Assembly (NCBI GenBank): GCA_900473915.1
Contig: UCNG01000011.1
Coordinates: 482,976-546,975 of the forward strand
Length of the DNA stretch: 64,000 nucleotides
DNA from: Hyphomicrobiales bacterium
GTDB taxonomy: Bacteria > Pseudomonadota > Alphaproteobacteria > Rhizobiales > Rhizobiaceae
Reading direction: 5' to 3'
Shown: one piece after another, positions 55,839 to 57,726 of the stretch
How the letters are laid out: each line of letters begins with the position of its first letter
Position numbering within the stretch: the first letter of the stretch is position 1
Made by a program: the position numbers and the translations under genes
The notes under the pieces: generated by a model
Database searches by the model: none
What the model was told of the DNA's origin: nothing
The model's input: the letters and a program-made list of their open reading frames with translations, nothing else

Positions 55839-56243
55839 ATGACAAAGGGACATGACACGTTGACCGACCTGCACCTTGGTACGCCTCCCTGGTTTTTCCT
55901 GTCCGCGCGGCTGCTTCCATTGGGCATTGTCAGTCAATTCCTGAGTGCGGGAGCGGCGCTTTTCAGCGGAGCGTGGGATTGGGAGATACACAAGGCAATC
56001 GGAGGGGCCTTGTCCTTGCCGATAATGGTCCTATGCGCTGGCGCCTTTGCTGTGCCGCGCTTGCGTGGATTCAACTGGTGGGCCGGCTTGGTCTTCACCC
56101 TCTATATCATTCAGTTCGCATTGGCGGCGGGAGCGACCCCGCTACCGCTCGCATTTCATCCGTTCAACGGAACGCTCTTGCTGATGGCCAGCTTGGTTCT
56201 GCTCGCCAAAGTCGAGCGTCGCGCGAGAAAGAGCAATACGTAG
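55839..56243 (+). CDS. Four-helix membrane protein, DUF6220-like
   Basis: A 134-residue inner-membrane protein with four hydrophobic segments (FFLSARLLPLGIVSQFLSAGAALF, IGGALSLPIMVLCAGAFAV, WWAGLVFTLYIIQFALAAG, PFNGTLLLMASLVLLAKV) and the family-like HPFNGTLLL. It begins three bases after the quinone oxidoreductase with AAAGGATGAACC as ribosome site, so they are co-transcribed. Function unknown; the pairing suggests a role in quinone or redox stress. Confidence 0.75.
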   Translation: MTKGHDTLTDLHLGTPPWFFLSARLLPLGIVSQFLSAGAALFSGAWDWEIHKAIGGALSLPIMVLCAGAFAVPRLRGFNWWAGLVFTLYIIQFALAAGATPLPLAFHPFNGTLLLMASLVLLAKVERRARKSNT

Positions 56244-56280
56244 CGGTGCAAGAAGAGAGCTTTACTTTGCGTCGGTCGAG

Positions 56281-56502
56281 CTAAAGTTCCAAGCCGCGCT
56301 GCTGCCCCAACCGCCAAGAAACCGATCCGCCCTGCATGATACCCGTCGCCTCACGACCGAGCTGGCGGTCGATGATAGGCCGCCACGGGACAAGAGTAAA
56401 CTCGTGCGCTTTTTCCACGACGGTGAACTTGCCGCTCGACGGCTGCACGGCGCCGAACATCTCACCCCCTTCAGTTTCTACGCCTAAATTGAAAGGCGTC
56501 AT
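56281..56502 (-). pseudogene. C-terminal remnant of a relaxase (DUF3363/TraI-type)
   Basis: Frame ending in EFTLVPWRPIIDRQLGREAT then GGSVSWRLGQQRGLEL and a stop. This matches, from memory, the extreme C-terminus of plasmid/ICE relaxases with a DUF3363 domain (FSLVPWRPV, GGGVSWxxGRQRG). Only about 60 codons remain; the catalytic N-terminus is absent. It marks past presence of a conjugative or mobilisable element next to the tRNA-derived sequences. Confidence 0.65.
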
Positions 56503-56534
56503 TATCTGCGGGTGTCATGTTTGCTCCGGAAACG

Positions 56535-56568
56535 CCAAAACCCCGCTGCGTGGGCAACGGGGTTTTGG
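56535..56568. terminator. Hairpin terminator downstream of a tRNA-like 3' end
   Basis: CCAAAACCCCG / CGGGGTTTTGG, 11-bp perfect stem, loop 12. On the minus strand it sits 6 bases after a tRNA-type ...CCCCCGCAACCA end, the position of a tRNA terminator. Confidence 0.65.
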
Positions 56569-56573
56569 ATCGT

Positions 56574-56725
56574 TGGTTGCGGGGGCAGGATCTAATCTTC
56601 ACTTGCTCCCCGAGCAAGTGAAGATGGTTGCGGGGACCGGCGTCGATCATAACTTGCGATCGACGCCGGCAAAGATGGTTGCGGGAGCATGCATCCATCT
56701 TCACCTGCTGTTCCGGACGGCGGCA
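56574..56725. repeat. Three phased 51-bp units derived from a tRNA-fMet 3' end, with perfect hairpins
   Basis: TGGTTGCGGG occurs at 56574, 56625 and 56676, exactly 51 bases apart; copies 2 and 3 share AAGATGGTTGCGGG. Copy 1 extends to TGGTTGCGGGGGCAGGAT, the reverse complement of the initiator-tRNA 3' end (ATCCTGCCCCCGCAACCA). Unit 1 contains a 14-bp perfect hairpin ATCTTCACTTGCTC/GAGCAAGTGAAGAT (56595-56625), and unit 2 a 12-bp one CCGGCGTCGATC/GATCGACGCCGG (56637-56669). Unit 3 repeats ATCTTCAC at the same offset as unit 1 but without the pairing arm. No intact tRNA is present. Confidence 0.75.
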
Positions 56726-56736
56726 TAAGTGCCGAT

Positions 56737-56783
56737 CCTTGCCAAGGTTGGGGTCGAGGGTTCGGGCCCCTTCGCCCGCTCCC
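56737..56783 (+). pseudogene. 3' half of tRNA-Gly(GCC), probable attachment-site scar
   Basis: From the anticodon loop onward (CCTTGCCAAGGTTGGGG, GTCGAGGGTTCG, CCCTTCGCCCGCTCC) the sequence follows tRNA-Gly(GCC), with three changes in the T loop (GGC for AAT) and CG instead of the A of CCA. The 5' half is replaced by unrelated sequence. Elements that integrate in tRNA genes leave such 3' duplications at their far end. Confidence 0.7.
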
Positions 56784-56896
56784 GTTCTTTAAAGAAATCA
56801 ACGGCTTAAGCGAGAGTCGCCTGTGGGCGGCCTTTACTTTTTTGGCTTGGTCAACACATGGTCAACACGGCGATGAATCGTAATCGTCCAAATGTT

Positions 56897-57037
56897 TCAT
56901 AGTATCCGCCATGGCAAACAGTTCTGGAGGGCGGGGCTGTGGTTGTGCAGGGACCAAACGACCGAAAAGGTGACCGGATCTGCCTCGTCGGTGATCGGTA
57001 GGAAGTCGATCTCGGCCACGAATGCAACCGGCTTAAT
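56897..57037 (-). pseudogene. C-terminal remnant of a LysR regulator
   Basis: A 46-codon open stretch, bounded upstream by TAG, reads FLPITDEADPVTFSVVWSLH then NHSPALQN. It resembles the end of LysR effector domains of the type FLPIxDExxPxxFSxVWSPHNxSxxLRN. No start codon or DNA-binding domain is attached. A matching type of LysR N-terminal fragment lies at 59769 in the opposite orientation. Confidence 0.45.
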
Positions 57038-57126
57038 CTAATTCTCTTTCTCTAACTCCAGCGTCGCTTTTCGGTAGAGGCAGGTTGCGACATGAGCCGA
57101 TGATGCATCGGCATGACGTACAAATT

Positions 57127-57726
57127 TCATGTAGCAGGTCGCAAGAAGCGGCTCACCATCGTTGTGATCAGCTTCCTGCTTTCCTCGAAACCAATGTCGG
57201 ACGCCATCAGCGGCAGCATCGGCGCGGCATCAAGGATGGCCACCAGAACCGCGCTTGTGTGCTTCGGGTCAAGATCGGGATCGACCTCTCCACGCGATTG
57301 GCCGGCTTTCAGGGTCTCCATCAGGAGCGCCCGCACGCCATCGGTATTCTCTTTGAGGATAGCGCGGATTCTTTCGTTACGTCCCGCTTCTGCCAGCAAT
57401 TCAAACAGGATGCGACAATGGGTGAGGTCGTCCCACCCCTTCATGCTCCAAAGTTCCGATAGCAACACGGTCGCAGTTTGCTCGGCTTCTGCATGACCGC
57501 TGAAATGGGCGTGGAGTTGCGACAGGTATTCGTCGGCCATCTGTTCGATGATCGCGTCCTTACTCGGAAAGTAGTGATATAGGTGGCCGGGGCTCATGCC
57601 CGCCTCCTTACAGATCATCGAAATCGACGCGCCTTGCAGCCCGTGGCGCAGGAAGCAGCGGTGCGCCGCCGCGAGAATCTCCTGCCGTTTGCCTTCGTGC
57701 TGTTCGGGAACGAGCTTGCGGACCAT
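57127..57726 (-). CDS. TetR-family repressor
   Basis: A 199-residue regulator. The helix-turn-helix at about 12-58 contains ASISMICKEAGMSPGHLYHYFPSKDAIIEQMADEYL; the C-terminal domain is of the TetR_C (BetI-like) type. ATG 57726 has GGAGG four bases upstream; the frame to 57780 is spurious. Two near-identical palindromic operators lie in the gap to the divergent DoxX-like and MFS genes, so it likely represses itself and them. Confidence 0.87.
   Translation of the reverse strand: MVRKLVPEQHEGKRQEILAAAHRCFLRHGLQGASISMICKEAGMSPGHLYHYFPSKDAIIEQMADEYLSQLHAHFSGHAEAEQTATVLLSELWSMKGWDDLTHCRILFELLAEAGRNERIRAILKENTDGVRALLMETLKAGQSRGEVDPDLDPKHTSAVLVAILDAAPMLPLMASDIGFEESRKLITTMVSRFLRPAT

Follow-up and report, generated by a model that had tools for sequence, protein, structure and literature searches.

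A tandem 51-bp array beside an initiator-tRNA remnant as the probable element-side half of a multi-core attachment site of integrative conjugative elements

How does the 3′ end of an initiator tRNA come to stand at the head of a regular tandem array in DNA that has no tRNA gene? This question is raised by a stretch of 64,000 nucleotides from a Hyphomicrobiales bacterium, here called the window, in which ARAGORN found no tRNA genes. The sequence TGGTTGCGGG occurs in it three times, starting at 56574, 56625 and 56676 and thus spaced by 51 and 51 bp, and ATGGTTGCGGG occurs twice against 0.04 occurrences expected. The first 18 bases of unit 1, TGGTTGCGGGGGCAGGAT (56574..56591), are the reverse complement of the tRNA-fMet 3′ end of many related genomes, including CCA, so that the identity lies on the minus strand. 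The array further contains perfect palindromes of 14 bp (arms 56595-56608 and 56612-56625) and 12 bp (arms 56637-56648 and 56658-56669), and a terminator-like hairpin with 15-bp arms that are 93% complementary is found to its left (56535..56568). A preliminary description of the locus had reported the exact spacing, the 18-base identity, the two hairpins and the stem, all of which are borne out, and had offered recombination sites or processed RNAs using tRNA ends as explanations. The array reads as a single open frame of 17 codons per unit, ending in LFRTAA with the stop at 56728, and no large serine recombinase (LSR) gene adjoins it in the window. On comparison with related loci, it is very probably the attL half, i.e., the element-side half, of the attachment site of an integrative conjugative element (ICE) that enters the 3′ end of tRNA-fMet by an LSR, the circular attP being a tandem of up to three LSR sites. 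Of the two earlier proposals, the array of recombination sites is therefore the one retained.

The element can be followed from end to end in Haematobacter pOT1-2. Here, the reading frame of a 567-aa recombinase, which has the Resolvase, Recombinase and zinc-ribbon domains of LSRs, continues across one unit and on into an intact, oppositely oriented tRNA-Met gene. The L007 protein has PF00239, PF07508 and PF13408, all above cut-off, and other recombinases were assigned as LSRs by their similarity to this protein. The far end of the pOT1-2 element (14158-88555), 74 kb from the recombinase end, carries units 2 and 3. The recombinase, a DUF3363 protein, TraG and trb genes are situated between its two ends, and on this ground the element is an ICE, with integrase, relaxase (by annotation) and conjugation genes between attL and attR. 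Its cargo includes a BREX gene set and other defence-like genes (L237/L238).

Whole or partial arrays were detected by blastn in plasmids of Paracoccus, Novosphingobium, Rhizobium, Shinella, Ensifer, Sinorhizobium, Haematobacter and Pelagibacterium. When species genomes were scanned with the unit pattern, at least 117 stretches were obtained, whose hosts, judging by their titles, we take to be Alphaproteobacteria or unclassified Proteobacteria. Together with plasmid and viral matches and the window, the genome matches listed amount to at least 126 arrays with an exact pattern match. Counting units across related genomes, as had been suggested at the outset, gives 72, 34 and 20 arrays with one, two and three units among those listed; these numbers are corrected from 66, 39 and 21, in which the tRNA had been counted as a unit in seven right junctions. 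Some arrays repeat one sequence (L001/L059, L015/L053, L049/L090 and L051/L057/L072), and L065 and L120 are two halves of one array split by a locus border. In related genomes the array is found in one of two places, with an LSR gene on one side and tRNA-fMet on the other, or else at the far end of the element. A phage origin was considered and rejected, as 50,697 phage records gave two weak 31-bp matches and only a few viral contigs matched, three with the unit pattern and one with a right junction. In nine loci (L011, L025, L058, L069, L074, L104, L127, L129 and L131), the last unit has a core of the form T(G/A)GTTGCAGG, with the dinucleotides TG, TT, CA or CT.

Each unit is made up of an attP core, its right half-site and the left half-site that belongs to the following core. 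The left half-site is GCAAGTAAAGATGGTTGC, in place of which the host flank stands in the first units of attL. The right half-site is approximately an imperfect reverse complement of the left one, and 8 bp separate the two, with the variable dinucleotide of the core in the middle of this spacer. In the window, unit 1 (56574..56624, plus strand) has the core GGGGGC with GG at 56584-56585, and its right half-site (56589-56606) has 6 mismatches in 18 positions against the reverse complement of the left half-site. Unit 2 (56625..56675, plus strand) has the core GGGGAC with GA at 56635-56636, between a left half-site at 56614-56631 (1 mismatch) and a right one at 56640-56657 (5 mismatches). Unit 3 (56676..56708, plus strand) has the core GGGAGC with AG at 56686-56687 and half-sites at 56665-56682 and 56691-56708 (3 mismatches each). 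The left half-site and most of the core are constant, and the core dinucleotide and the right half-site vary. Of the fixed backbone with exchangeable hairpins that had been proposed, the backbone thus stands, but what is exchanged is the dinucleotide with the right half-site. The unit-1 hairpin arises because each right half-site forms an inverted repeat with the left half-site that follows it, and the unit-2 palindrome goes beyond this symmetry. Since the copies differ at the crossover dinucleotide, the view that simple att duplication does not give such an array was well founded.

The dyad symmetry around the dinucleotide is present in attP, although it is weak in first units. The search pattern itself prescribed nine of the 18 positions of the right half-site; at the nine left free, the mean match is 0.57 (199 cores). 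Third units match at 7.4 of the nine, single units at 5.95 and first units of three at only 3.1, which makes the first right half-site a poor dyad partner. The motif GCAACC, the start of the right half-site and outside the search pattern, is found at offset 15 in 34 of the 199 cores, and the other offsets from 8 to 25 have none; the dyad centre therefore falls on the varying dinucleotide. In the 20 three-unit arrays among the matches listed (L050 was left out, its third core being the tRNA), the first core is GG and the second GA in all 20, and the third is AG in 19 and TT in one, so that 19 of the 20 have the order GG, GA, AG. The dinucleotide would correspond to nucleotides 66 and 65 of tRNA-fMet, counted from the CCA end. 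Of 115 genomes sampled from the class, 71 gave a match to tRNA-fMet, and a hand count of their alleles gave 56 GG (one also with an AG copy), 9 GA, 2 AG and 4 others. The GG, GA and AG cores thus match tRNA-fMet alleles of different hosts.

A mechanism can be proposed from this arrangement. In the circular ICE, attP would consist of up to three sites, 51 bp apart, that overlap the 3′ end of the recombinase gene in frame and share half-sites, with GG, GA or AG as central dinucleotide. A serine recombinase joins only sites with matching central dinucleotides and, as hosts differ at nucleotides 66/65 of tRNA-fMet, it would use the core that matches the host tRNA, the 3′ end of which would be rebuilt from identical sequence on integration. 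Units to the left of the used core would then stay beside the recombinase and the tRNA (attR), and units to its right would go to the far end (attL). The window would be an attL split at core 1 (GG).

If the matching core is used, right junctions are predicted to keep 0, 1 and 2 units at GG, GA and AG tRNAs, respectively. To be taken, a junction had to show an LSR match of 50 aa or more; those identical in the last 200 bases to an earlier one were dropped, also across genomes, which left 50. Among the junctions with an LSR at least 70% identical to the L007 protein, a cut chosen after the data had been seen, 32 have a GG tRNA and no unit, 8 a GA tRNA and one unit, and one, L050, which by itself makes up the AG class, an AG tRNA and two units. 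All 41 follow the rule, as well as which none of 200,000 shuffles of the labels performed. The LSR match of L024 measures only 57 aa, at a contig end. All 41 accordingly speak for an equal central dinucleotide in attP and attB, with a reservation for L235 (LSR 70.7%), which was counted as GG with no unit by the 51-bp rule but has a GA-core unit of about 93 bp before its GG tRNA. The rule does not extend to LSRs below 70% identity, as the nine junctions there comprise six GG and three GA tRNAs, all with no unit. Two further GA junctions with no unit, L243 and L244, have LSRs of 38% and 67% and lie outside the rule as well. Additional GG junctions with no unit were found with LSRs of 77-91% in five genomes (L245-L249, two of these belonging to species that the set already contained) and one viral contig (L241), and without an LSR match in L242 and L250; L215 is a GA junction with one unit, likewise without an LSR match.

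Seven of the eight GA junctions were first found by searches that required a unit. Unit-blind searches met five of the eight (L224, L101, L084, L043 and L007), all with one unit. L224 was met when 149 genomes of a single family were sampled without regard to units, and it is hardly independent of L007, as the two LSRs are 99% identical. The class-wide and family scans yielded a right junction in 1 of 385, 1 of 149, 3 of 149 and 2 of 248 genomes, and 36 of 73 array-bearing genomes have one when one mismatch is allowed. On a tree of the LSRs, comprising 39 of the 41 rows, the GG label changes five times, all forced by well-supported (starred) branches, and the GA label five times, four of them forced. 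With the labels taken together, there are 6 changes against a shuffled mean of 7.6, a number as low in 10 of 200 shuffles, which indicates some clustering. The split is therefore not simply inherited with the recombinase, as label changes are forced on its tree, although the labels are somewhat clustered. L235 itself (Paracoccus versutus pBEN, about 2600-2800) combines a related LSR (71%) with a two-core site in which GA precedes GG, with other half-sites and a spacing of about 93 bp; it is possibly an independent array.

The most direct view of the partition is given by one element in two hosts. Aligned over 73 kb, the ICE of Haematobacter pOT1-2 shares 94.1% identity with that of Novosphingobium pSA1; in the array, all 51 positions of unit 1 are identical, as are 182 of 185 in units 2-3 with the tail. 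In pOT1-2, where the tRNA reads GGGGAC, unit 1 is found at attR beside the recombinase and units 2-3 at attL; in pSA1, where it reads GGGGGT, all three units are present at attL. Both ends on one contig were found in MKWE01000024 (87.6 kb, tRNA GGGGAT, 1+2 units) and in G062:C25, taken as NZ_SLVX01000025 (85.8 kb, tRNA GGGGGC, 0+3 units). In G055:C16 (tRNA GGGGAC), unit 1 lies at one end and one GA unit at the other, i.e., a two-core array divided 1+1, the whole form of which is seen in L056. Comparison of the related loci thus supports the anatomy of the site, the partition of its units and their match with the host to the point where we regard them as shown; we infer from it that dinucleotide matching causes the choice of core and that the array broadens the host range.

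At the other end of the element the same match is expected. Among the arrays listed that are not right junctions and to which a host allele can be assigned, 89 in number, the first core and the host allele agree in 73, where 57.9 would be expected from shuffling, and none of 100,000 shuffles was as high. Without the arrays next to LSR-like genes, the match is 60 of 72 against 50.4 expected (4 of 100,000 as high). The 16 that mismatch the host allele (L016, L026, L027, L032, L036, L044, L046, L051, L065, L066, L072, L078, L096, L113, L114 and L127) indicate that scars also travel or derive otherwise; L051 and L072, from different genera, have a left flank in common, as though flank and array had been transferred jointly. 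The 45-bp left flank of the array was moreover compared with the flank of an intact tRNA-fMet of the same genome, one copy per genome being chosen without an adjacent LSR of the main group. In 8 of 39 pairs the score is 40-45, three of them 45/45, against a maximum of 35 in 1365 between-genome pairs; a ninth same-genome pair exceeds the 99th percentile only. The same agreement is seen between the Kaistia attL L265 and the intact tRNA copy L167. The idea that the flank of the intact tRNA-fMet gene would be informative is thereby confirmed in part of the pairs, in genomes other than that of the window.

Successive elements inserted at the same tRNA-fMet and lost by deletion could also leave tandem 51-bp remnants. 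Several elements do sit side by side at this tRNA, as LSR genes followed by a full array occur in L001, L003, L055 and L080, and some arrays stand behind another conserved left flank (class B). This flank, ending about GGATAGCGTGGCGTGCTGTAG, directly precedes the tRNA-fMet core in L018, L023, L041, L046, L083, L121, L128, L162 and L215 and is perhaps the end of another element family at the same tRNA; no obvious integrase adjoins it among the open reading frames at the four loci inspected. Such an accretion of scars is nevertheless improbable, as it fits neither the constant order of cores in three-unit arrays, nor the division of the same units between the ends of one ICE according to the host tRNA, nor a reading frame that is kept through the units.

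That frame belongs to the recombinase. In the window, the array forms an in-frame C-terminal coding tail, LVAGAGSNLHLLPEQVK-MVAGTGVDHNLRSTPAK-MVAGACIHLHLLFRTAA (56573..56728, plus strand), that is separated from its gene in this attL. The L080 protein, an LSR followed by a full array, ends in LFRTAA, and the L007 protein (attR) ends in MVAGTGFEPVTFRL; integration replaces ...LFRTAA by ...FEPVTFRL. Tails were compared in 117 arrays, namely the 126 minus eight filtered by text (seven right junctions and L131, the second unit of which happens to contain the filter word) and one running off its sequence. Among these arrays listed, 98 of the 117 in-frame tails have LF in the last seven residues and a final A, the commonest ends being LFRTAA (29) and LFRAAA (27). 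This conservation, although most tails have no LSR in front of them, suggests that selection acts on the tail in its role as the recombinase C-terminus of the circular form. LFRTAA-like endings presumably resemble ssrA-type tags, and, speculatively, LFRTAA might act in the circular form as a degradation tag that is removed by integration.

The same open frame and conserved tail could be read as 17-aa units kept only for the recombinase C-terminus, with any effect on site choice incidental. This is less probable still than an accretion of scars, as 0, 1 or 2 units precede the tRNA within the same LSR group, so that the recombinase needs no fixed unit number, and the cores differ precisely at the crossover dinucleotide. 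The preliminary description had held that an ordinary part of a longer coding gene would speak against its proposals; the array does form the 3′ part of a coding sequence, yet this sequence is that of the recombinase, and the point at which the array is split varies between hosts. The last alternative, a locus of processed RNAs or of tRNA-derived regulatory RNA, to which the tRNA identity and the hairpins had pointed, can be set aside as very improbable, since no Rfam family reaches the gathering score in 56000-57200, the tRNA identity lies on the strand opposite the recombinase gene and follows from the restoration of the tRNA end on integration, and arrays are located between an LSR gene and tRNA-fMet or at the far end of the element.

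The surroundings of the array in the window can be read along the same lines, as an attL of an LSR-borne ICE. The hairpin at 56535..56568 is probably the native flank downstream of tRNA-fMet. A relic of an ICE relaxase C-terminus (56290..56496, minus strand, 71 aa) is 62% identical to the DUF3363 protein of the pOT1-2 ICE; in the window, annotated in part, this relic and attL at 56.3-56.7 kb are the ICE parts recognised. For 56300-56455 there are further matches, near floR in L002 and in many plasmids. To the right, a second att-like segment (56737..56868, plus strand) contains the 3′ half of tRNA-Gly(GCC) and, behind it, two TGGTCAACAC repeats. Similar segments lie behind the array in L031, L034, L065, L066, L078, L088, L110, L111 and L125, in several of which direct repeats such as TGGTCAACAC occur with the tRNA-Gly(GCC) 3′ half right after the array stop codon, and an intact tRNA-Gly(GCC) of matching sequence is present in L036. 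The segment is probably a second att site, used by a tyrosine recombinase and adjoining that of the LSR.

Several known systems have elements in common with this arrangement. In the phiC31 integrase system, the central 2 bp must match, which defines six orthogonal classes including CC/GG, TC/GA and CT/AG (PMC3936721). The phiC31 and Bxb1 systems share with the recombinases described here the Resolvase, Recombinase and zinc-ribbon domains and half-sites around a central dinucleotide matching attB (PMC3936721). The difference is that up to three tandem attP sites with three dinucleotides are found here in nature, whereas the orthogonal sites in that report were designed. Mesorhizobium ICEs, including the tripartite ICE3 (IntS, IntG and IntM), also reside at tRNA genes, and one integrase of a tripartite ICE specifies a tRNA-Met(a) (PMC5882170; PMC8627217). 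However, IntM is called a tyrosine recombinase and is thus rejected as the same recombinase (PMC5882170), and the available text of the two reports mentions no core array. PMC4741004 was discarded as a precedent for an ICE at the initiator tRNA, as its available part describes no such ICE. In mycobacteriophage BPs, attP lies inside an open reading frame, so that integration changes the C-terminus of the product, and integration-dependent immunity results from the removal of an ssrA-like tag from the repressor (PMC4557955). The attP inside the frame and the changed C-terminus recur here, but the altered gene is the recombinase itself rather than a repressor. Multi-targeting LSRs likewise reach more than one attB with one family, there in different target genes (PMC10083194), here in alleles of one gene through separate matched attP cores. 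In titles and abstracts, with few subscription journals covered, no tandem attP with different cores for tRNA alleles was found.

Tentatively, and with more doubt than confidence, attP may be pictured as a key ring that holds one core per common alphaproteobacterial tRNA-fMet allele, combined with a C-terminal switch by which the recombinase would be short-lived in the circular element and stabilised once integrated. If true, the array is a host-range device that can be read from DNA, as the unit count at the right junction would predict the host tRNA allele and the reverse, and it would account for the presence of closely related elements in widely different bacteria. It would also be a natural example of orthogonal serine-recombinase sites, otherwise met as synthetic design (PMC3936721), and it draws attention to recombinases and sites able to act at a single conserved tRNA in several bacterial orders. 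With a C-terminus that changes through the reaction it catalyses, the recombinase would also provide a testable integration switch.
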